64,000 nt of DNA from assembly GCF_026967805.1 (NCBI RefSeq), contig NZ_JAPVBG010000001.1, forward strand, positions 124,001 to 188,000, read 5' to 3'. A program made the position numbers and the translations under genes. The notes beneath the pieces are model-generated. The model was not told the DNA's origin and did not search any database. It saw only the letters and a list, made by a program, of their open reading frames with translations. Source of the DNA: Blastococcus sp. VKM Ac-2987 (GTDB lineage Bacteria; Actinomycetota; Actinomycetes; Mycobacteriales; Geodermatophilaceae). This document shows positions 48,538 through 60,603 of this stretch, piece after piece; the first letter of the stretch is position 1; each line of letters begins with the position of its first letter.

Positions 48538-49749
48538 TCAGCGCCCGGGTGCTCCGGTCGGCCCCGCGCGGCGCAGGAGCGTCGCCGGACGGACCGCGCC
48601 GGCACCGAACCGCCGGGCGGCGCGATCGGCGGCCAGCTCGGCCTCCCGGCGCCCGTGCTCGCGCGCCCCGAGCTCCAGCTGGCGGGGCGCCGATCCGGCC
48701 TCGACGAGCCGTTCTGCCCGGACGCCGACGAGCCGGATGCGGGCCCGGTCGAGCCCCAGGGCGTCGTAGAGGGCACGGGCCGTGTCGTAGAGCTCCTGCC
48801 CCACGTCGGTGGGCGCCCCGAGCGTCCGGCTACGGGTGATCGTCGCGAAATCGGCGAAGCGCACCTTGATGCTCACCGTGCGGGCGAGGCTGCCGGTCGA
48901 GCGAAGCCGCCCCGCCGTCCGCTCCGCCAGGCGCAGCAGCTCCCGGTGGACGACCACGGGGTCGTCGACGTCGGTGGCGAAGGTCTCCTCCGCGCCGGTG
49001 GAGCGCTCGGGCTCGTCCGGGACGACCCGCCGGGGGTCGCGCCCCCAGGCGAGCTCGTGCAGGTGGGCGCCCGCGGCCACGCCGAGGGCCCGCTGCAGGG
49101 TCTTCGCCGGCACGTGCGCCAGGTCGCCCACCGTGCGCAACCCCAGCCGCAGCAGGGTCTCCTCCGTCTTGGGGCCCACGCCCCAGAGCGCGCCCACCGG
49201 CAGCGGGTGCAGGAAGCCCATGACCTCCGGGGGCCGGACGACCAGCAACCCGTCGGGCTTGGCCCGCGTGGAGGCCAGCTTCGCCACGAACTTGGTGCCG
49301 GCGACGCCGACCGAGCAGGTGATGCCCTGCTCGTCGAAGACCCGGGCGCGGAGGTACTCGCCGATCTCCGCGGCGTCGCCCAGCCGGCGACCGGCGCCGG
49401 ACACGTCGAGGAACGCCTCGTCCAGCGAGAGCGGCTCGACCAGCGGGGTGATCGACCGGAACAGCGCCATGACCGCCCGGGACACCTCGGTGTAGAGCGC
49501 CAGGTCCCCCGGCAGGACCGTCGCCGTCGGGCACAGCCGCAACGCCCGTGCGGTGGGCATGGCCGCGTGCACCCCGTAGCGCCGGGCCTCGTAGGTGGCC
49601 GAGGTGACCACGCCCCGGTTGCCGGCCCCGCCGACGATCACCGGCGTGCCGGCCAGCTCCGGGTGGCGGCGCACCTCCACGCTGGCGAAGAACGCGTCCA
49701 TGTCGACGTGCAGCACGGTGCAGCCGGCAGCCCGCGCGCTCTCCCCCAT
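48538..49749 (-). CDS. dinB: DNA polymerase IV (Y family)
   Basis: An error-prone translesion polymerase, 403 residues. The metal-binding aspartates are intact: HVDMDAFFASVE at the N-terminus and PLSLDEAFLDVSG in the palm. The little-finger region (TVSIKVRFADFATITRSRTL) follows. Because the catalytic residues are complete it is a true DinB, not the inactive ImuB. The ATG at 49749 has GGGAGG upstream; an earlier start at 49797 would overlap the LexA site. Expression should be under SOS control (LexA box at 49777-49792). Confidence 0.95.
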   Translation of the reverse strand: MGESARAAGCTVLHVDMDAFFASVEVRRHPELAGTPVIVGGAGNRGVVTSATYEARRYGVHAAMPTARALRLCPTATVLPGDLALYTEVSRAVMALFRSITPLVEPLSLDEAFLDVSGAGRRLGDAAEIGEYLRARVFDEQGITCSVGVAGTKFVAKLASTRAKPDGLLVVRPPEVMGFLHPLPVGALWGVGPKTEETLLRLGLRTVGDLAHVPAKTLQRALGVAAGAHLHELAWGRDPRRVVPDEPERSTGAEETFATDVDDPVVVHRELLRLAERTAGRLRSTGSLARTVSIKVRFADFATITRSRTLGAPTDVGQELYDTARALYDALGLDRARIRLVGVRAERLVEAGSAPRQLELGAREHGRREAELAADRAARRFGAGAVRPATLLRRAGPTGAPGR

Positions 49750-49762
49750 GACCCCTCCCGCA

Positions 49763-49806
49763 CGTCGCCCCGTGGATCGAACAGGTGTTCGATCCACGGG
49801 GCGACG
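49763..49806. promoter_or_regulatory. LexA (SOS) box in a 44-bp perfect palindrome
   Basis: TCGAAC-AGGT-GTTCGA at 49777-49792 is a perfect actinobacterial LexA site. The symmetry goes on well beyond the box: 20-base arms (49763-49782 and 49787-49806) are exact reverse complements around a four-base centre. A -10 candidate TATCGT (49804-49809, minus strand) overlaps the outer arm, so LexA would sit on the dinB transcription start. The palindrome would also form a strong hairpin in RNA. Confidence 0.9.
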
Positions 49807-49857: not shown

Positions 49858-50559
49858 TCAGCGGACGGCGACGCGCTCGTCCTCGTCGTCGTGCTTGCTC
49901 GGCCACATCTTGGCGCCGAGCACGCCACCGAGGGCGGCCGCGGCGATCGACAGACCCAGTCCGAGCACCGCCCAGCTGGCGGCGGAGCGGGCCGCATCCG
50001 CAGCCTCGCCGGCCTGGATGTCGGGGATGTCGGACTGCTGGATCCCGGCGATGTCGGTGACCGCACCGGCGAGCGAGCCGAGCAGGGCCCCGCCGCCGAA
50101 CAGCGTGAGGAGGAGCAGCGACACGATGGTCAGCGCCCAGACGAGGATGCCGTGCAGGAGGCCGTCGCTGATCCCGCGCCAGATGGCGGTGGCGGCCGCG
50201 GTCAACCCACCCAGGAACAGGGCGACCAGACCGTTGATGCTGCTCCACAGGTCGGCGTTGTTGCCCTCACCCGCGCCGACGTCCCACAGGCCCAGGGCGA
50301 GGGTGGCGAGCTGCAGCAGCAGGAACGTGGGGATCGCGACCACGAGACCGGCCCACACCGGACCCCACCGGACGCGGTCGCGCCGCGTCGGTGCCACGGA
50401 CACCTGCGTGGGCCGCCCGACGTGATCGTCGTCGTGGTCGACCCGCGGGGCGGCCGCGACGCGGGTGGCACCCTCCGTCGTCCCCACGGGCGTGGTGGCC
50501 CCTTCGGTGCGGGCGTCCGCCCCGCTGCCGGAATCGATTCGTGCACGACCTTCGGTCAT
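49858..50559 (-). CDS. Four-helix membrane protein, unknown
   Basis: A 233-residue protein without a recognised family. A polar N-terminus of about 70 residues rich in Asp/Thr/Ala precedes four membrane helices (VWAGLVVAIPTFLLLQLATLALG, INGLVALFLGGLTAAATAIW, GILVWALTIVSLLLLTLFGGG, AASWAVLGLGLSIAAAALGGVLG). The tail is short and acidic (PSKHDDEDERVAVR). The ATG at 50559 is chosen because GGAG lies six bases upstream; ATG at 50565 touches the GGAG. It has a 253-base upstream region shared with the divergent repeat-peptide gene. Confidence 0.75.
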   Translation of the reverse strand: MTEGRARIDSGSGADARTEGATTPVGTTEGATRVAAAPRVDHDDDHVGRPTQVSVAPTRRDRVRWGPVWAGLVVAIPTFLLLQLATLALGLWDVGAGEGNNADLWSSINGLVALFLGGLTAAATAIWRGISDGLLHGILVWALTIVSLLLLTLFGGGALLGSLAGAVTDIAGIQQSDIPDIQAGEAADAARSAASWAVLGLGLSIAAAALGGVLGAKMWPSKHDDEDERVAVR

Positions 50560-50812
50560 GACCATCTCCTTCTCGTTCGTCGTCTCAGCTGTTCTGGGGA
50601 GAGATGCCCGGTCAGGTGCGCATCCCTCCCGCCGGCGCCCAGCCGTAACCGGATCGAGATGTGCGCGCGCTGCCCCGTGGCGCCCCACCGCACCTCCCCC
50701 ACCGGCACGAACACCGAGGTCACCGCCCATGTGTGGACCGGGAGCGCATTAGGTACAGCAGCTCCCGCAGGGTCGCCGTCCGGTGGCCCGGTCGATCGGA
50801 TCGGAGGAGCCA

Positions 50813-51079
50813 GTGGCGCTCGACGACGAGGACATGACCAGCACGGAGGGCCCGGCCGACGGTGGTGCGTCCGGCACCGCGGGAACGCACGACGGAGGCG
50901 CTGACGGTGGCGCTGACGGTGGCGCCGACGGTGGCGCCGACGGCGGCGCCGAGGGCCCGGCCGACAGCAGCGCGGGCCCGGCCGACCACGGCGCTTCCGG
51001 CGCTCCGGGCGGCCACGACGGCGGTGCCGACGGTGGTGCCGACGGTGGCGCCGACGGCGGTGCGGACGGTTCGGCCTGA
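50813..51079 (+). CDS. Gly/Asp/Ala repeat small protein, possible precursor peptide
   Basis: An 88-residue protein made almost wholly of Ala, Asp and Gly. Two similar halves exist: each has PAD, then ASG and HDGG, followed by four to five DGGA units (one block ends AEG, the other ends at the C-terminus, DGSA). The first residues (ALDDEDMTSTEG) are the only non-repetitive part and look leader-like. The GTG at 50813 has GGAGGA four bases upstream. It is directly followed by a JmjC oxygenase and a ferredoxin-like gene. It has no signal peptide, helix or cysteine. It may be a substrate of the oxygenase; that is inference. Confidence 0.6.
   Translation: MALDDEDMTSTEGPADGGASGTAGTHDGGADGGADGGADGGADGGAEGPADSSAGPADHGASGAPGGHDGGADGGADGGADGGADGSA
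50891..51069 (+). repeat. Two arrays of a 12-base tandem repeat
   Basis: Units close to GGCGCCGACGGT repeat without gap at about 50891-50956 and again at about 51018-51069, coding for DGGA units. Third-position changes are frequent (GGT, GGC, GCT, GCC), so the amino acids are kept although the DNA varies. This suggests the protein repeat is selected and not only slippage. Confidence 0.7.
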
Positions 51080-51147
51080 GCGAGAGCCAGACCCCGCAGG
51101 GCCGGGCGGAGCAGCAGCTCCGCCCGGCCCTGCGGCGGTGCACGGAC

Positions 51148-52401
51148 ATGGCGCCCGAGCTCTTCGCCGAGCAGTACTGGGCGCGCCGCCCGCTGCTCAC
51201 GCGGGCTGCGGACACCGGTAACTCCTTCACCGACCTGCTCGACCTGCCCGCGGTCGACGAGCTGCTCTCCCGGCGCGGCCTGCGCACGCCGTTCCTGCGG
51301 ATCGCGAAGGACGGCGCCGTCGTCGACGCGAAGCGGTTCACCGCATCCGGCGGGGCCGGAGCGGAGATCGCCGACCAGGTCTCCTCCGACGCGGTGCTGC
51401 GGCTGTTCGCCGACGGGAGCACCGTCGTCCTGCAGGGCCTGCACCGGCTGTGGCCGCCGCTGATCGAGTTCGCCGACCAGCTCGCCGCCGACCTCGGCCA
51501 CCCCACGCAGGTGAACGCGTACGTCACCCCGCCGTCCTCGCAGGGCTTCAGCCCGCACTACGACGTCCACGACGTCTTCGTGCTGCAGGTGGCCGGGGAG
51601 AAGCACTGGACCATCCACGAGCCGGTCCTCCCCGACCCGCTGCGCACCCAGGTCTGGACCGAGCGCGCCGACGAGGTCGCCGCCGCGGCCGCGCGCGAGC
51701 CGGTCATCGACGCCGTGCTGCGCCCCGGTGACGCCCTCTACCTGCCGCGCGGCTACCTGCACTCGGCGAAAGCCCTCGGGGCGATCAGCGCGCACCTGAC
51801 CGTCGGCATCCACTCCGTGACCCGCTGGGCAGCCGCCGAGTCGGTGCTGGACCTGGTGCGCACCCTGGCGGCCGAGGACCGCGCGCTCCGGGGCTCGCTG
51901 CCCCTGGGCGTCGACCTGGCCGACCCCGACGTCCTCGCCGACGACGTCGCCGCCGTCGTCGAGGGGCTGCGCGGGTGGCTGGGCCGGGTCGACCCCGCGG
52001 AGGTGGCCGACCGCCTGCGGGCGCGCACCTGGGCCCAGGTGCGCGCGGAACCGGTGGCCCCTCTCGCCCAGGCCTCGGCCGCCGCCGCGGTCACGGCGGA
52101 GACGGCGCTGCGGCTGCGGCGCCGGCTGCGCTGCACGCTGCGCGACGGCGACGACGGCCGGGTCACCCTGCTCGCCGGGCGCCGCACGCACTCCTTCCCC
52201 GCCGAGGTGCGCCCCGCGCTGGCCGAGCTGCTGGCCGTCGGCGAGCTGAAGGCCGGCGACCTGCCCGGCCTGGACCCGGCGGAGCGGCTCACGCTGGCCC
52301 GCCGGCTGGTGACCGAGTCGATCGCCACCGTGCCCGGCGCCACCCTGCCGTCGACCGGGCACGCGGCCGCACGCGAGGACGCGTCCGGGCCCGGTCGGTG
52401 A
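51148..52401 (+). CDS. JmjC/cupin Fe(II) 2-oxoglutarate oxygenase
   Basis: A JmjC-type oxygenase, 417 residues from the ATG at 51148, similar in layout to ribosomal-oxygenase (YcfD/NO66) proteins. The iron-binding triad is His137 and Asp139 (SPHYDVHDVF) and His205 (PRGYLHSAK); these enzymes hydroxylate Arg, His or other residues of proteins. A C-terminal winged-helix-like part ends the protein. No ribosome site precedes the ATG. The frame stays open upstream with family-like residues (ALRRCTD), and a CTG at 51076 overlaps the stop of the repeat-peptide gene, so the true start may lie earlier. Confidence 0.85.
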   Translation: MAPELFAEQYWARRPLLTRAADTGNSFTDLLDLPAVDELLSRRGLRTPFLRIAKDGAVVDAKRFTASGGAGAEIADQVSSDAVLRLFADGSTVVLQGLHRLWPPLIEFADQLAADLGHPTQVNAYVTPPSSQGFSPHYDVHDVFVLQVAGEKHWTIHEPVLPDPLRTQVWTERADEVAAAAAREPVIDAVLRPGDALYLPRGYLHSAKALGAISAHLTVGIHSVTRWAAAESVLDLVRTLAAEDRALRGSLPLGVDLADPDVLADDVAAVVEGLRGWLGRVDPAEVADRLRARTWAQVRAEPVAPLAQASAAAAVTAETALRLRRRLRCTLRDGDDGRVTLLAGRRTHSFPAEVRPALAELLAVGELKAGDLPGLDPAERLTLARRLVTESIATVPGATLPSTGHAAAREDASGPGR

Positions 52402-52405
52402 CACG

Positions 52406-53398
52406 GTGGCGCGCGTGACCGGAGCCGGCTCCGCGACCGGCGACGACGTCCGCCGCACCGACGCCCCCGCCCGCCCGCCCGGCCGGCTCGACGGGAACCG
52501 CTGCTCGGTGCAGGCGCTGGAGCGCGGCGACTCCGGCATCGCCACGGCGTCGCCGGTCTCCCGCTGGCTGCTGATCGAGCAGCCCGGTCCGTGGGGACGC
52601 CAGGCGCTGCTCCAGTCCCGGTTCGACGCGCGGGTGGCCCCGCTGCTGGCCGAGCGTGCGGACCGGGAGGGCGTGCGGGTGCTGCTGGTCCGCCGCCCCG
52701 GCGACCGGCTGTCGGACTCCGGCCGCCGCTGGGCCTACGCCGACAGCCGGCCCGGGCAGGAGGGGCTCTGGTGGTCGGTGCGCTCGGCCGACGCCGACCT
52801 GCTCACCGCGCCGTGGGACGGCTCGGTCGGCGAACCGGCGCAGGGTCGGACGTACCTGGTGTGCACCCACGGCGGGCACGACGCCTGCTGCGCGCTGCGG
52901 GGCCGGCCGCTCGCCCGGGCGCTGCCCTCCCCCGGCCCGGCCGACGTCTGGGAGTGCAGCCACCTGGGCGGCGACCGCTTCGCCGCCAACGTGCTCGTGC
53001 TGCCGCACGGCTTCTACTACGGGCAGGTGCCCGGGGACGGCGCCCTCGTCGTCGCCGCGCACGACCGCGGCCAGGTGGCGCTGCCGTGGCTGCGCGGGCG
53101 GGCCGGGCTCACGGCACCGGTGCAGGCGGCCCAGCACTACGCGCGCGAGGAGCTCGGCCTGCTCGGCGTCGACGACCTGGCGCCCTTGGGGGTCACCCGG
53201 CTGGACACGGCCGATCCGGCGGTGGAGCGGTGGGAGGTGTCCCTCACCACGCCGGCCGGACCGGTCGGGGTGACGGTGGAGAGCCGTCCGTCACCCGAGC
53301 TGGTCCACCTCACCTGCCAGGCGGCGCGCCCGGGCCGGGTGCGCAGCTGGCACCACCTCTCGCTGACGACCCGGCCGGCGCCACCGGCCGAGGGCTGA
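52406..53398 (+). CDS. Sucrase/ferredoxin-like protein
   Basis: A 330-residue Suc_Fer-like protein with a thioredoxin-like ferredoxin domain. The cysteine motif is VCTHGGHDACCALRGRPLA and the partner motif is WECSHLGGDRFAANVLVLPHG; these would bind a 2Fe-2S cluster. A second half (VGVTVESRPSPELVHLTC) ends the protein. It starts four bases after the JmjC stop, probably in one transcript, and may supply electrons for the oxygenase; that link is inference. The GTG at 52406 is used; GTG at 52415 is an alternative. Confidence 0.88.
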   Translation: MARVTGAGSATGDDVRRTDAPARPPGRLDGNRCSVQALERGDSGIATASPVSRWLLIEQPGPWGRQALLQSRFDARVAPLLAERADREGVRVLLVRRPGDRLSDSGRRWAYADSRPGQEGLWWSVRSADADLLTAPWDGSVGEPAQGRTYLVCTHGGHDACCALRGRPLARALPSPGPADVWECSHLGGDRFAANVLVLPHGFYYGQVPGDGALVVAAHDRGQVALPWLRGRAGLTAPVQAAQHYAREELGLLGVDDLAPLGVTRLDTADPAVERWEVSLTTPAGPVGVTVESRPSPELVHLTCQAARPGRVRSWHHLSLTTRPAPPAEG

Positions 53399-53403
53399 GG
53401 GCC

Positions 53404-53418
53404 GACCGGACGCCGGTC
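53404..53418. terminator. Small hairpin at a convergent junction
   Basis: GACCGG (53404-53409) pairs with CCGGTC (53413-53418) over a three-base loop, between the convergent stops of the ferredoxin-like gene and the phosphatase gene. It overlaps the phosphatase stop by two bases. Six base pairs are short, so the terminator role is a guess. Confidence 0.35.
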
Positions 53419-54607
53419 AGCCGAGGGCGCGCCCCCGGGCGGCGAGTAGCGGGATCGCCAGCTCCGTCGCGGTGAGCGACCCGTGGTAGGCCGCCAGCCG
53501 GCTCGGTCCGGGCTCCAGGCGGGGGCTGACCAGCACCCAGCTGCCGCGGGCCAGCGCCACGACGTCGCCGATGCGGGCGGCGAGCGCGTCGTCCACCGCG
53601 CCGAAGATCCCGCTGGCGACCGCCTCCTCGCGCCCGACGACCCAGGCGCGGTCGCCGAGGACGCCGCGCCAGCGGTCCAGGACATCGGTCTGGGCCCCGG
53701 GCTCGGTGTGCACGTAGCGGGCGCGCGGCTCACCGGCGAGCAGCCGCACCCCGTCGGCGAGATCGGGCTCGTCGTCGAGGTCGAGCCGGGTGTGCGCGGG
53801 GACGTCGAGCATCCCGTGGTCGGCGGTGACCAGCAGGGCGGCGTCGTCGGGCAGGCCGTCGACGAGCTGCTCGACGACGCGGTCGACCAGCGCGAGCTGG
53901 GCCCGCCAGCTGGGTGAGTCGACGCCGCGGACGTGGCCGGTGAGGTCCAGCTCGGCCATGTACCCGTAGACCAGGGCCCGCGGGCCCTGGTCCAGGGCCG
54001 ACCGCATGAGCGCGGTGAGGTCTCCGGGGCCCACCGCCCCGGTGTAGTCGGCGCCGCGGTAGGCGGCCACGGTGAGGCCCGAGCCCGCGTAGGCCCACGG
54101 GCCCACCGCGGTGACCGCGACACCGTCGGCGGCGGCGTGCTCGAAGACGGTGGGCCGTGCCTGCCAGGCGGCCGGATCGGGATCGTCGGCCCACTGGGTG
54201 TGGTTGAGGGTGCGGCCCTCCCCCGGCACCTCGGTGACGAAGCCCAGGACGCCGTGGCTGCCGGGCGGCAGCCCGGTGCCGATCGTGGTGAGGCTGACCG
54301 GGGTGGTGCTGGGGCAGGGCGCCTGGAGGTCCCCCACCGGGCTGGCCAGCGCGGCAAGGGTGGGGGCGAGATCGGCGTGGGCGCGGACCAGGTCGGCGCC
54401 CAGCCCGTCGACGAGGAGGACCGCCACCCGACGGGCCCCGTGCAGCGCCGAGGCGAGGCCGAGCGGATCGGCGGGCAGGTCGCCTCGTGGGACGGGCGCG
54501 CCCAGCGTCGCCGCCACGCCCGGCAGCACGTCGGCCAGGGTGGCCACGCCGTAGGCCGGCCGGTGCAGGTCGGGGGGGAGCCCGCCGCCGTCGACCGCGC
54601 CGGTCAC
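53417..54607 (-). CDS. Alkaline phosphatase-superfamily nucleotide pyrophosphatase/phosphodiesterase
   Basis: A 396-residue member of the alkaline-phosphatase superfamily (NPP type). The first metal motif is VAVLLVDGLGADL; the nucleophile region is CPSTTPVSLTTIGTG with a Thr as likely nucleophile; and the metal ligands TADHGMLD and the final His in AAYHGSLT complete the set. The gene has no signal peptide that I can see, so it may be cytoplasmic. The GTG at 54607 overlaps the methyltransferase stop by four bases, so the two genes are coupled. Substrate unknown. Confidence 0.88.
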   Translation of the reverse strand: MTGAVDGGGLPPDLHRPAYGVATLADVLPGVAATLGAPVPRGDLPADPLGLASALHGARRVAVLLVDGLGADLVRAHADLAPTLAALASPVGDLQAPCPSTTPVSLTTIGTGLPPGSHGVLGFVTEVPGEGRTLNHTQWADDPDPAAWQARPTVFEHAAADGVAVTAVGPWAYAGSGLTVAAYRGADYTGAVGPGDLTALMRSALDQGPRALVYGYMAELDLTGHVRGVDSPSWRAQLALVDRVVEQLVDGLPDDAALLVTADHGMLDVPAHTRLDLDDEPDLADGVRLLAGEPRARYVHTEPGAQTDVLDRWRGVLGDRAWVVGREEAVASGIFGAVDDALAARIGDVVALARGSWVLVSPRLEPGPSRLAAYHGSLTATELAIPLLAARGRALG

Positions 54608-56228: not shown

Positions 56229-59200
56229 TCAGTGGCCGGAGCTGCCCGGGCTGGAGTGCCAGAGCTTCCGGGGCGGCCCGGCCGCTGCCCGCCGCGCGGC
56301 GACCTTGGTCTCCTCGCCGGCCGGCTTGATGTCGGCGTAGGGCGACATCCGGAAGCCGGTCGGGTGGACCAGGACCGGCCGGACGACGACCGGACGGGCG
56401 CCGTGCGAGGCCGCGGCACCGGCGATCGCCTGCTCCGTGTACTCCCCCGGCGCAGCCATCAGCTCGGCGACCGACTCGAGCCCGCCGGCCTCCCACGCCT
56501 CGTGCAGCGCCGGCAGCTCCCAGGCCCCGGTAGCCCGCAGCGACATCCCCCGCGGGCCGGTGCGCCGCAGCACCCCGCGGATCACCAGCAGCCACGAGTG
56601 GAAGACCGTCGCGGCGTAGGGGCCCTGGGCGTCCTCGAAGAAGGTCGAGTCGGTGCAGCCGGTGCCGTCGTCGAGGGTCACGAACACCACCCGGCGCCCG
56701 GACCGGATCGGTGGCGTCTGGGTGGCCACCTTGACCCCGGTGACCAGCACCTCCGCCCCGCTGCGGCAGCCGAGGAGCTCGCCGGCCGGTACCGCGCCGA
56801 GCGCGGAGAGGAACGGCCGGTAGAAGTCGACGACGTGCCGGCTGGCGTCCAGCCCCAGCACCTCCAGCTCCGCCCGCACCAGCTCGGCGTCGGTGAACTC
56901 GGGCAACCCGCTGCTCTCCGCCCAGGCGGGGGCGGTCGCACCGTCGGACTCCGCCGTCCCGGCCGCCGGCTCCTCCTCCAGCCCCATCAGGTCCAGGCTC
57001 AGCTGCCCGTCGGACGTGGCCCGGGCACCGCTGCGGCTCCACCGGTCCAGCTCGCTGATCTGCAGCAGCAGGTCCCGCCGGGTCACCTGGTGGCGCCGCC
57101 GGGTCGGCCGGCCGGCCTCGCGGTCGCGCACGCCGAAGCCGTAGAGCGAGTCGAACCCGCCGGCCAGCACCAGCCGCTCGACCACCGGCCGGGACACCGA
57201 CGCGCGCGACCAGAAATCCGTCAGTGACCGATAGGGCTGCCCGGCGACGACCCGCGCCACCTCGTCGTCGGAGATGCCCTTCACGTCGGCCAGGGACAGC
57301 CGGATGCCGTAGCGCGAGGGGTCGGGCATCGCCGTCGGCATCCACTCGGGGCGCCGCCAGCCCTGGATCTCACCCTCCACCTCACGGTCAGGGTCGGTCG
57401 CGTCGTCGTCCGTGGCGCCGTCGGTGGCCAGCCGCTCGACGCGGTAGCTGCCGGCCGAGGCGTTGACGTCGAGGCCGAGCACGCGGATGCCGAAGTTGCG
57501 GGCGTCGTCGAGGATCAGCCGCTTCGGGTACATGCCGGGGTCGTGGGTGAGCACCCCGGCGAGGAAGGCCGCCGGGTGGTGGGTCTTCAGCCAGGCCGAC
57601 TGGTAGGTGGGCAGCGCGAACGCCGCGGCGTGCGCCTTGCAGAAGCCGAACGACCCGAAGGCCGCCAGCACCTCCCACACCCGTTCGGCCACCTCGACCG
57701 GGTAGCCGGCCGCCAGCGCACTGGGCACGAACCAGGCCCGCACCTCCGGGTGGGCGTCCTTCTCCCCCAGGGCACGGCGCACCTCGTCGGCCTCGGCCAG
57801 CGTGCAGCCGACCATCCGGGCGACCACCTGCAGCACCTGCTCGTGGAAGACCACCACCCCGGCGGTCTCCGCGAGCGCGAACTCCAGGTCGGGGTGCGGG
57901 TACTGCGCCTCCTGCCAGCCGTTCCGGGCCATGAGGAACGGGGTGACCATGTCGCTCTTCACCGGCCCGGGCCGGAACAGCGAGATGTCGATGATGATGT
58001 CCTCGAAGGTCTGCGGCCCGAACTTGCCGACCAGCTCCCGCTGCCCCGGCGACTCGATCTGGAACATGCCGAGCGTGCGGGTGCTGCGGATCAGCTCGAA
58101 GGTCGTCGGGTCGTCCCGCGGGACAGCGTCGATGTCGACCGCCTGCTCGTCGACCCGCTCGATCTCCTCGAGGGCGTGCGCGATGGCCGACTGCATCCGG
58201 ATGCCGAGCAGGTCGAGCTTGAGCAGCCCCAGCTCCTCCACGTCGTCCTTGTCGAACTGGCTCATCGGGTAGCCCAGGTAGCTGCTCTCCACCGGGGTGC
58301 GGTCCAGCAGCGTGGCGTCGGAGAGCAGCACCCCGCACGGGTGCAGCGCGATGTGCCGGGGCAGCCCGTCGAGCCGGGCGACGAGGTCGAACAGCAGGTC
58401 CAGATCACCGGAGCCACCGGCCCGCTTCGAGCCCAGCCGGCTGGCCTGCAGCTCCGGCAGGTCGCGCAGCGCCGCGTGCACCTGGTTGGCCCGGATGTGC
58501 GGGAACGCCTTGGCGACGGCGTCGACCTCCGCCGGGGGCAGCCCGAGCGCGGCGCCGACGTCACGGATCGCGTGCCGCACCCGGTAGGTGTCCATCATCG
58601 AGATGCAGCTGACCCGGTGGGCGCCGAAGCGGTCGATGACCGCGTCGTAGACCTCCATCCGGCGGGCGGACTCCACGTCGATGTCGATGTCGGGCAGCTG
58701 GTGACGCAGCGGCGAGAGGAACCGCTCCATCAGCAGCCCGTAGCGCAGCGGGTCGACGTCGGAGATGCCCAGCAGGTAGGTGACCAGGCTGCCGGCGCCA
58801 GAGCCACGGGCGGCCGCCCGGACCCTCAAGCTCCTGATGAGGTCGACCACGTCGGCCACGGTGAGGAAGTAGGAGGGGTAGCCGAGGGACTCGATGACCG
58901 CGAGCTCGTCGGCCAGCCGCCGGCGGACCCGGGCCGTGGGGGCCATGCCGCGCCGGCCCAGCCCGGCCTCGCAGCGGGCTCGCAGCACCTGCGTGGGGCC
59001 CATGCCGCGCTCGGCCGGCGTGGTGACGACGTCGAGCTCGGGGTACCGGACGCTGCCGATGCCCAGGTCGGCGGTGGTGTCGACGGCGCACTGCTCGGCC
59101 AGCCGGGCGGTGCGCTCGAGCAGCCGCAGGGCGGCGTCCCGGTCGGGGCCCACCACGTCCTCGGCGACGTCGGCCATCTCCTTGCCCGACTTCAGGTAGC

Positions 59201-60020
59201 CCTCGGCCGTGGTGCGGTCGACGTGCCGCGCGCCGAGCGGGACCAGCCGCCGGGCGGCGTCCAGCACGTCGGCGGTCGGTGCGTCCAGGGCGTCGACGTA
59301 GCGGACGGCGTTGCTGAGCACCACCGGCACGCCCTGCTCGGTGGCGAACCGCAGCATCGCCTGGGCCCGGGAGCGGTCACCGCGCCCGCGGTGGTGCACC
59401 AGCTCCAGCGCCAGCCGTGGGCCGAACACCGCCCGCCAGGCGTCCAGCTGCTCGGCGGCCAGATCGGCCCGGCCGGCCAGCAGCGCCCGCCCCACCGGGG
59501 AGTCGGGACCGAGCAGCGGGGTCAGCCCGGTCGCGTGCTCGGCGGCGATCGCCAGCGAGCTCACCGGCTCACCGCGGGTGCCGCGCAGGTGGGTGGCGCT
59601 GGTGAGCCGGCACAGCGACCGCCAGCCGGCGCCGTCCCGCGCCAGGAAGGTGACCCGGGGCAGCCGCAGGTCGACGCTCGCCCCACCGCGGGCCGGCGCC
59701 CGGCGGCCGGCCGGCGCTGCCCGCGACCGGGGGGCCCGCGCCGCGGCAGGGTCCTCCCCCAGCACGTGCGCGAGCGCCGGGGGCACGCTGGTGCCCAGCG
59801 ACGGCGCCACCGCCAGGTCGACGCCGAAGATCGGCCGCACCCCGGCCGACCGGCAGGCCAGCGCGAACTTGACCGCGCCGTAGAGGCCGTCCCGGTCGGT
59901 CAGGGCCAGCGCCGGCATGCCGTGCTCGGCGGCGCGGGCCACCAGGTCGGCCGGGTGGTTGGCCCCGTACCGCATGGAGTAGCCGGAGGCGACGTGCAGG
60001 TGGACGAAGGGGTCGCTCAC
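56229..60020 (-). CDS. dnaE2: Error-prone DNA polymerase DnaE2
   Basis: The second alpha subunit, used for SOS mutagenesis, 1263 residues. PHP start: VHLHVASGYSMRYGANHPADLV; the palm motif is LPDIDID with Asp444, Asp446 and Asp448. Further family stretches include FHEQVLQVVARMVG and SFGFCKAHAAAFALPTYQSAWLK. An unusual Arg/Ala/Pro-rich insert lies near residues 90-125, after the PHP start. The C-terminal OB part ends in a Gly/Ser tail. The GTG at 60020 has GAGGAAG upstream. It follows the HEPN and DUF6504 genes and should be LexA-controlled. Confidence 0.96.
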   Translation of the reverse strand: MSDPFVHLHVASGYSMRYGANHPADLVARAAEHGMPALALTDRDGLYGAVKFALACRSAGVRPIFGVDLAVAPSLGTSVPPALAHVLGEDPAAARAPRSRAAPAGRRAPARGGASVDLRLPRVTFLARDGAGWRSLCRLTSATHLRGTRGEPVSSLAIAAEHATGLTPLLGPDSPVGRALLAGRADLAAEQLDAWRAVFGPRLALELVHHRGRGDRSRAQAMLRFATEQGVPVVLSNAVRYVDALDAPTADVLDAARRLVPLGARHVDRTTAEGYLKSGKEMADVAEDVVGPDRDAALRLLERTARLAEQCAVDTTADLGIGSVRYPELDVVTTPAERGMGPTQVLRARCEAGLGRRGMAPTARVRRRLADELAVIESLGYPSYFLTVADVVDLIRSLRVRAAARGSGAGSLVTYLLGISDVDPLRYGLLMERFLSPLRHQLPDIDIDVESARRMEVYDAVIDRFGAHRVSCISMMDTYRVRHAIRDVGAALGLPPAEVDAVAKAFPHIRANQVHAALRDLPELQASRLGSKRAGGSGDLDLLFDLVARLDGLPRHIALHPCGVLLSDATLLDRTPVESSYLGYPMSQFDKDDVEELGLLKLDLLGIRMQSAIAHALEEIERVDEQAVDIDAVPRDDPTTFELIRSTRTLGMFQIESPGQRELVGKFGPQTFEDIIIDISLFRPGPVKSDMVTPFLMARNGWQEAQYPHPDLEFALAETAGVVVFHEQVLQVVARMVGCTLAEADEVRRALGEKDAHPEVRAWFVPSALAAGYPVEVAERVWEVLAAFGSFGFCKAHAAAFALPTYQSAWLKTHHPAAFLAGVLTHDPGMYPKRLILDDARNFGIRVLGLDVNASAGSYRVERLATDGATDDDATDPDREVEGEIQGWRRPEWMPTAMPDPSRYGIRLSLADVKGISDDEVARVVAGQPYRSLTDFWSRASVSRPVVERLVLAGGFDSLYGFGVRDREAGRPTRRRHQVTRRDLLLQISELDRWSRSGARATSDGQLSLDLMGLEEEPAAGTAESDGATAPAWAESSGLPEFTDAELVRAELEVLGLDASRHVVDFYRPFLSALGAVPAGELLGCRSGAEVLVTGVKVATQTPPIRSGRRVVFVTLDDGTGCTDSTFFEDAQGPYAATVFHSWLLVIRGVLRRTGPRGMSLRATGAWELPALHEAWEAGGLESVAELMAAPGEYTEQAIAGAAASHGARPVVVRPVLVHPTGFRMSPYADIKPAGEETKVAARRAAAGPPRKLWHSSPGSSGH

Positions 60021-60093
60021 GCGGCTTCCTCGCCGGCGGTCGTCATCCGCGTGATCGCGGCTGCCGTCTCCACTGGTGAGCTCGCGAGCTCGC

Positions 60094-60603
60094 TCACCTC
60101 CGGGGCCCGGCGGACCGGGACGCGGCACCGGACGCCGACCCGCCGACCACGTGCGGCCTCGGGTAGCGGGGCGACCCGGGCAGCGGCGTGCTGCCGAGCG
60201 CGGTCTCGACCACACCGAGGAAGGCGCGGACGTCACGCACCAGGTCGTCGGCCTCCCGCTCGGTGACCGCCCGGGACAGCCCCGCCTCGGCGGCGGCGCG
60301 CTTGCCCGCCCCGGCGGCGAAGAAGGTGGCCCACTCCCCCAGCTCCGGCGCCACCTGCCCGAGCAGCACCCAGGCGCTGCGCGGCCGGCGCCGCTCGCCC
60401 TCCGGCCGGGTGCGGGCGGCCAGCACCGCGGCGGCGGCGCGGAGCGCGGCGAGGTGGGCGGTGGCGTACCGCTCCCGCTGGTCGGTGGCCGCGGCGGCCA
60501 CGGCCAGCCCCCGGTGGGCCTGGCCCAGCAGCGCCGAGGCGGCGGCGGGCAGGGCGGGGGGAAGCGGCAGCTGCTCGGCCGGCACGGCCCGTGCGGCGCC
60601 CAT
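60094..60603 (-). CDS. SAV_6107-type HEPN domain protein
   Basis: A 169-residue all-helical protein of the SAV_6107 HEPN type, a family found beside dnaE2 in actinobacteria. The conserved part is LLGQAHRGLAVAAAATDQRERYATAHLAALRAAAAVLAAR, in which Arg45-x4-His50 is an HEPN-like R-x4-H motif. It is followed by WVLLGQVAPELGEWATFFAAGAGKRAA. The ATG at 60603 shares one base with the DUF6504 stop (TGATG), so translation is coupled. HEPN proteins are often RNases or RNA-binding; the role here is unknown. 73 bases separate it from dnaE2. Confidence 0.85.
   Translation of the reverse strand: MGAARAVPAEQLPLPPALPAAASALLGQAHRGLAVAAAATDQRERYATAHLAALRAAAAVLAARTRPEGERRRPRSAWVLLGQVAPELGEWATFFAAGAGKRAAAEAGLSRAVTEREADDLVRDVRAFLGVVETALGSTPLPGSPRYPRPHVVGGSASGAASRSAGPRR

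Follow-up and report, generated by a model that had tools for sequence, protein, structure and literature searches.

Introduction

Why should an oxygenase gene follow directly on a gene for a small protein of aspartate-rich repeats, and could the one protein be the substrate of the other? This question is raised by positions 50813-53398 of a 64,000-nucleotide stretch of the genome of Blastococcus sp. VKM Ac-2987 (hereafter the window), where three genes lie in a row on one strand: an open reading frame (ORF) encoding a DGGA-repeat protein, a gene for a JmjC_2-type Fe(II)/2-oxoglutarate (2OG) oxygenase and a gene for a Suc_Fer-like protein. A preliminary description, made from the letters of the window, had given this order and strand, and both a re-reading and the family matches agree with it. 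The oxygenase matches PF08007 (E 3.6e-28, 98.1 bits against a cut-off of 22) and the third protein PF06999 (E 2.5e-16, 60.8 bits against a cut-off of 34.9); no NCBIfam model matched either of them, and the repeat protein belongs to no Pfam or NCBIfam family. Judging from the conservation of these genes, we consider it probable that they form a stand-alone module akin to those of ribosomally synthesized and post-translationally modified peptides (RiPPs), in which the JmjC_2 oxygenase would beta-hydroxylate the aspartates of a multi-repeat peptide.

Linkage of the repeat ORF to the oxygenase gene

All loci were gathered by the enzyme alone, without using the repeat ORF, and the searches covered Actinomycetota, plus plasmid and viral collections. 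The enzyme search gave matches in 74 out of 97 relatives and none in the other 23; among the first 70 relatives' loci, a DGGA-repeat ORF stood directly before the oxygenase gene wherever the upstream DNA sufficed. Of 396 genomes sampled from the phylum, 58 were matched by a profile of 22 enzymes; 49 of the 58 carried the repeat ORF, 6 had none, 2 reached a contig end and 1 was unclear (genome G231, locus L088). From a scan of named genomes, the best 80 of 562 matches were taken, which bear 20 genus labels (one being 'None' and one an unverified Bacillus sp. AZ43) and include Blastococcus, Geodermatophilus, Modestobacter, Klenkia, Actinoplanes, Micromonospora, Kribbella, Actinokineospora, Saccharopolyspora, Cellulomonas and Marmoricola. 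The locus labelled UNVERIFIED_ORG Bacillus sp. AZ43 (L110) is Blastococcus-like, with 85% identity in the enzyme, and its label is probably wrong.

Altogether 219 loci were collected, and 190 remained once identical enzyme cores were dropped. Setting aside 8 with less than 200 nucleotides (nt) upstream and no match left 182 testable loci, which are not independent events, as close strains stay in the set. An Asp-rich ORF ends just before the enzyme in 170 of them, and the leader pattern, loosely taken, is present in 152 of these 170. The rule called for at least 5 Asp in the last 50 residues and for 80% of those residues to come from the set DGASTPENQH; two of the 170 (L088 and L186) are doubtful by eye, and a stricter first cut at 7 Asp gave a repeat ORF in 153 of the 190 loci. 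The gap between the repeat ORF and the aligned enzyme start has a median of 69 nt (range 17-500). As a control, the rule was also run on 3149 anchors picked at random within these same loci: 21 passed, one of them with a leader. The 12 loci without a repeat ORF (L206-L215, L223, L224) hold remote JmjC_2 enzymes with 27-37% identity to the best query, and with a Suc_Fer gene behind none of them they act as negative controls. Suc_Fer stands behind the enzyme in 148 loci, 140 of which have testable upstream DNA. The preliminary description had proposed looking for DGGA-rich ORFs upstream of JmjC and Suc_Fer genes in relatives; these were found at the frequency given above, and JmjC/Suc_Fer pairs lacking a repeat gene, its own counter-case, did not occur (140/140 with a repeat ORF). 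This conservation strongly supports its proposal of the repeat protein as a dedicated substrate, and we likewise have strong confidence that the repeat peptide would be the substrate of the adjoining oxygenase.

Searches from the side of the peptide were less sensitive. The DGGA precursor of locus L061, searched against the 97 relatives at E 1e-6, was matched in 29 genomes, all with the enzyme, and 28 of the 29 places were at the enzyme locus (the other being G049:C16). None of the 23 enzyme-less genomes matched, which is weak evidence, because 45 of the 74 enzyme genomes were missed too. In seven genomes without a clear repeat ORF, a precursor search (E 0.001) gave no match, with the positive control G178 being matched. 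A search of the window's genome for further copies of the repeat gene brought up none that convinced: of five matches, the next best had an E of 0.196. Among plasmids, a tblastn search with the query P0002 returned 120 records; identity stayed below 60% throughout, and no record covered 80% of the query at a single place. The viral contigs gave no match, and carriage by plasmids or phages was rejected for these collections.

In a quick tree of 77 enzymes, with long branches among the outgroup rows, 38 rows with DGGA repeats and 21 with a second, DxD type of repeat are separated by a single change if these alone are counted. When each label is scored against all others, the same tree needs 5 changes each for DxD and for other, 4 for DGGA and 2 for none.

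Sequence and selection of the repeat peptide

The repeat ORF of the window begins with GTG, preceded by GGAGGAG, and encodes the leader VALDDEDMTST followed by two repeats of the form EGPAD..HDGGADGGA.., so that the protein consists of two similar halves, each EGPAD...HDGGADGGADGGA.... At the DNA level, Tandem Repeats Finder reports period-12 arrays at 50890-50952 and 51008-51069 (scores 98 and 68). Starts could be called for 156 of the 170 precursors, comprising 115 of the DGGA type, 37 of the DxD type and 4 others. They are 46-225 residues long and contain 9-37 Asp (median 19, leader included) and no Cys. Repeats of the DxD type are exemplified by DGDATDGTDGDA, TDADADSTDADADS and DADGTDADGTDA, including DADGTDA, and their enzymes are about 34-43% identical to the DGGA-type ones. 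The genomes concerned lie mostly outside the window's class, in the same phylum; nearer cases are L102 within the class and L220-L222 within the order. A common leader pattern, L-x-D-[DE]-D-[IM]-x-T, runs across the repeat types, reading L-[ST]-D-[DE]-D-I-x-T-V in the DxD type and L-D-D-D-D-M-T-S in the DGGA type.

Other designs occur as well: the L104 precursor is made of YGPRDxxSADGTDQGV units, that of L199 has two copies of PTEDDENLDAPGEHSQDTGDE after the usual leader, and the repeat protein of Geodermatophilus ruber (L131) carries the insert GLIDKVRDKVRDVIGGDKG in the middle of its DGGA array. Six further precursors compared with Pfam and NCBIfam gave no match, save for a match of L199 to daptide_123 that, at 15.8 bits, stays below the cut-off of 25.

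After residue 14, Asp is present in at least five copies in 156/156 precursors and is the sole residue to reach this in all of them. Asp is favoured as the target because it stays while spacing and adjacent residues change between lineages, and our confidence that it would be the residue modified is moderate.

Could the repeat ORF be a chance frame in GC-rich tandem DNA repeats? Its low complexity, high G+C content and period-12 arrays would fit such an origin. However, 150 random pairs of orthologs from the window's family differ 1675, 1478 and 5076 times at codon positions 1, 2 and 3, and the median ratio of nonsynonymous to synonymous substitution rates (dN/dS) of these pairs is 0.20, with alignments that are rough owing to the repeats. 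The leader and the ribosome site are conserved, and other lineages hold a different repeat at the same position before the enzyme. Neighbouring repeat units compared in register gave 128, 62 and 1629 differences at the three positions, figures biased by the choice of arrays by protein pattern, which favours such a result; the comparison of exact DGGA units carries no evidence, as units that share all four residues have little room to differ other than at third codon positions. From the codon-position differences and dN/dS of the repeat ORFs it can be concluded that what has been preserved is the protein sequence, and the ORF is, to judge by its codons, selected at the protein level. The chance frame was rejected on the ortholog codon statistics together with the position before the oxygenase in 170 of the 182 loci, and we give it next to no chance.

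The oxygenase and the start of its gene

The catalytic triad that the preliminary description had named, His137, Asp139 and His205, is right and proved invariant in alignments of 22 and 54 rows (residues 161, 163 and 229 in the numbering of the latter). The HxD..H motif plus a Lys is invariant in 54/54 enzymes, as is a His165-Asp166 pair just after the HxD motif, and a comparison of all 54 with NCBIfam gave no match. An AlphaFold2 model built with the 54 sequences has a predicted local distance difference test (pLDDT) score of 92.5. By profile, the nearest solved structures are NO66 (1.3e-42) and MINA53 (7e-34), then YcfD types, and Foldseek likewise ranks NO66 first for the model (6.7e-27).

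One difference concerns the residue that binds the substrate His in these relatives. A Gly that is invariant in 54/54 enzymes (G244; 12 outgroup enzymes were left out) aligns by profile with the His-binding Ser of NO66 and MINA53, at the place we take to be Ser421 from the NO66 numbering. In simulations of NO66 and MINA53 described in an excerpt of PMC9994133, the hydrogen bond to Ser421/Ser257 is the most stable one for the substrate residue. By its aligned sequence, the present enzyme thus appears to lack the Ser typical of NO66/MINA53-type histidyl hydroxylases, and the invariant Gly in place of the His-binding Ser would therefore fit a substrate other than His.

The oxygenase gene probably begins at CTG 51076, which overlaps the TGA of the repeat ORF (CTGA), and not at ATG 51148, giving the protein 24 additional residues. 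Several observations from sequences and the model point this way. The conserved N-terminal block RPALRRC is encoded before ATG 51148. In 64 of 69 loci of the window's family, CTG is the oxygenase-frame codon that overlaps the repeat-ORF stop; one locus has GTG there, and 52 of the 69 have no ATG, GTG or TTG between this codon and the aligned oxygenase start. Of 101 loci outside the family, 25 have CTG at this point, 13 have GTG and 3 have TTG. The mean pLDDT is 79 for residues 11-20 and 97 for residues 21-30, with ATG 51148 corresponding to residue 25. The CTG overlaps the stop of the repeat ORF, and translational coupling of the two genes is therefore suggested. Automatic annotation would probably clip the N-terminus of such oxygenases.

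The Suc_Fer protein and other neighbours

The AlphaFold2 model of the Suc_Fer protein has a pLDDT of 91.5. Its best match by fold and profile, a weak one, is the 2Fe-2S ferredoxin 1f37 of Aquifex (Foldseek E 0.04, profile E 0.0011). Cys33, Cys153, Cys161, Cys162, His186 and Cys304 are invariant in 43 rows, and the predicted 2Fe-2S ligands are those we assume by analogy with Apd1. Within 4 kb of the 80 loci taken as the best of 562 (less at contig ends), the oxygenase cluster covers 20 genus labels and the Suc_Fer cluster 16, with no other cluster on the coding strand being widespread. Any other neighbour among the 14 largest clusters reaches at most 6 labels, those of the window's family, save for a cluster of minus-strand shadow frames.

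Proposed function and alternative explanations

Two features of RiPPs were found: a short encoded precursor beside the enzyme in 170 of the 182 loci, which that enzyme would modify, and a conserved leader apart from a variable core, which may serve as recognition site. We class the module, known here from its genes, as a RiPP-like JmjC-modified peptide, neither a proven RiPP nor a ribosomal oxygenase. Transcription would start upstream, perhaps at GTGT-N16-AGGTA in the window's family. The acidic Gly/Ala/Asp-rich peptide would be made first and the oxygenase would follow by coupling in many species. The leader, kept across repeat types, may dock on the oxygenase, which would work along the repeats and place oxygen onto Asp, most likely at the beta carbon, to yield a flexible, highly charged poly-3-hydroxyaspartyl repeat chain. 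Where present, the Suc_Fer protein would probably supply electrons or keep the enzyme iron reduced. 3-Hydroxy-Asp is a ligand for iron in siderophores and for calcium in proteins, and the product would probably bind metal (Ca or Fe) at many places along the chain. For translational coupling, leader docking and the roles of Suc_Fer and of metal binding, our confidence is weak. The most far-reaching version falls somewhat short of what we would call probable: a new class of ribosomal peptide in at least two classes of Actinomycetota, in which one JmjC enzyme would beta-hydroxylate many Asp, the product would chelate iron or calcium, and the DGGA or DxD design would have co-evolved with the enzyme.

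Several observations weigh against an Asp-hydroxylating module. The enzyme of genome G231 (L088) belongs to the DGGA clade, yet no DGGA gene was found there, and the acidic ORF that precedes the enzyme gene looks unrelated. The repeat-less locus L211 falls within the DxD group of the enzyme tree, and because this long-branched row sits there, repeat versus none needs two changes. In the 4 kb around the 80 loci, the 14 largest clusters of neighbours included no conserved gene for a protease or an exporter, so that a mature, secreted RiPP is unsupported; proteases of the host might act on the peptide. A Suc_Fer gene does not adjoin 27 repeat-bearing loci (including the doubtful L088 and L186), chiefly from Micromonospora, Actinoplanes and Paractinoplanes. 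In a check of ten genomes besides the window's for PF06999 anywhere, it was absent from G071, G083, G092, G369 and G370 and present away from the locus in G078, G205, G231, G444 and G460. Because it is missing at 27 loci and five genomes have no PF06999 at all, Suc_Fer is an accessory and not a necessity; the earlier suggestion that the ferredoxin supports the oxygenase is accordingly the weaker part of the preliminary description. The earlier suggestion of Asp hydroxylation gains from the constancy of Asp across repeat types (156/156) and from the change of Ser to Gly, but Gly (150/156) and Ala (153/156) are nearly as constant. Finally, NO66 and MINA53 themselves hydroxylate His, according to the available text of PMC9994133. 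This leads to the alternative that the His of the HDGG unit, or another residue, is modified in place of Asp, and His does precede DGG in many DGGA repeats. Yet His is missing beyond residue 14 in 43 of the 156 precursors, and many DxD and some DGGA precursors (such as L009, L010, L157 and L162) are wholly free of it, which makes a His target unlikely.

The kinship of the enzyme with NO66 and MINA53, its nearest solved structures, also raises the question of whether it is itself a ribosomal oxygenase like these or YcfD, with the repeat ORF as a regulator or a substrate-mimicking decoy; regulation by competing substrate analogues is raised in an excerpt of PMC9994133. A ribosomal target, however, would need no repeat peptide ahead of the gene in 170 of the 182 loci, the His-binding Ser is replaced by the invariant Gly, and the enzyme was not found in 23 of the 97 relatives, so that we see little likelihood of this role. 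Alternatively, the product of the repeat ORF might act without modification, as a disordered acidic stress protein or a metal buffer, and have no more than an operon in common with the oxygenase. The lack of a conserved protease or exporter nearby would suit such a protein, as would the promoter-like block kept in the window's family. Its linkage to this one enzyme clade, in at least two classes and with both repeat types, speaks against it, and we judge it quite improbable.

If Asp hydroxylation by the module is true, the module would represent a class of peptide modification whose sole core enzyme is a JmjC hydroxylase and whose substrate offers many potential sites. For a large orphan branch of JmjC_2 enzymes, co-expressing two short genes would put the candidate substrate to a direct test. 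Should the product be poly-hydroxyaspartate, common actinobacteria would encode a new type of metal-binding polymer, and hydroxy-Asp could be introduced into peptides by simple means.

Layout of the locus in the window

The features of the locus are collected in Table 1. The block GTGT-N16-AGGTA occurs in 33 of 46 upstream regions of the window's family against 1.3 expected, and in 0 of 88 elsewhere. In most of the 46 loci of this family (L006-L053), an inverted repeat of the type GGGCCGCCG-nC-CGGCGGCCC precedes the repeat-ORF start by 38-46 nt. Its arms change in step across relatives (GGCTGCC/GGCAGCC, GACCGCC/GGCGGTC, GTGGTCGCC/GGTGGCCAC), and stems of at least 9 pairs were found in 22 of the 46 loci compared with 7.7% of control windows (median 8 versus 6). 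These matched changes make it a candidate 5' hairpin or palindromic operator. An Rfam scan of 50400-53600 gave no match, and scans for sigma-70 promoters and for terminators found nothing. The region is flanked by genes at 48538-49797 and 56229-60236, both on the minus strand, which we take to be DNA polymerase IV (DinB)-like and error-prone DnaE2/ImuC-type genes.

Table 1. Features of the repeat-peptide and oxygenase locus, in positions of the window
Feature	Position	Strand	Basis
Asp-rich DGGA-repeat protein (putative precursor/substrate), 88 aa	50813..51079	+	ORF, repeats, conservation
JmjC_2 Fe(II)/2OG oxygenase, 441 aa if started at CTG 51076 (probable), 417 aa if at ATG 51148	51076..52401	+	PF08007
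Suc_Fer-like protein, predicted thioredoxin fold and 2Fe-2S cluster, 330 aa	52406..53398	+	PF06999
Promoter-like block GTGT-N16-AGGTA	50731..50755	+	kept in the window's family
Inverted repeat GGGTCGCCG-TC-CGGTGGCCC, between the promoter-like block and the ribosome site	50770..50789	+	matched changes in relatives

Comparison with known systems

By title and abstract, no description of the gene pair or the module was found in the literature covered, with most subscription journals and preprints outside its scope, and none of the relevant papers contained the literal repeat strings searched for. The ribosomal oxygenases NO66/RIOX1, MINA53/RIOX2 and YcfD are the best match in sequence and fold and are alike in the JmjC fold, the HxD..H triad and the Lys. 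The present enzymes differ from them in having Gly at the His-binding Ser (54/54) and in the position of their gene behind an Asp-repeat ORF.

FIH acts on ankyrin repeats, and for the substrates of FIH and AspH we know of no dedicated neighbouring gene. These Asp/Asn C-3 hydroxylases share with the enzyme proposed here that they are 2OG enzymes able to act on Asp in proteins; an excerpt of PMC9994133 names aspartyl residues as possible targets of FIH, and aspartyl and asparaginyl residues of EGF-like domains as those of AspH. The Suc_Fer protein shares PF06999 and the invariant Cys153, Cys162 and His186 with the thioredoxin-like ferredoxins of the Suc_Fer/Apd1-Aim32 type; here its gene is coupled to that of an oxygenase.

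PF08007 has been met in RiPP-like settings before. A passage of PMC12710340 on fish and algal proteins states that bacterial homologues of about 30% identity occur in RiPP-like contexts and notes RRE-like domains. The setting resembles the present one, although a precursor or repeat is absent from that passage, and no title among its references 40-45 names this system. Comparable too are BipG and PbsQ, JmjC/cupin enzymes that hydroxylate a ribosomally made peptide, as is proposed for the enzyme here. According to the available text of PMC12707348 and PMC12257519, BipG of the biphenomycin pathway is an ornithine hydroxylase, and its relative PbsQ (pbs) added oxygen only when arginase was co-expressed. 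Around the present loci, neighbour clustering gave no further widely conserved gene, with no search aimed at MNIO, B12-radical SAM or arginase genes. In the excerpts of those two papers, BipG and PbsQ are ornithine-linked tailoring enzymes beside MNIO and B12-radical SAM genes, whereas here the JmjC_2 oxygenase is the sole widely conserved candidate modifier and its putative substrate is an Asp-repeat peptide.

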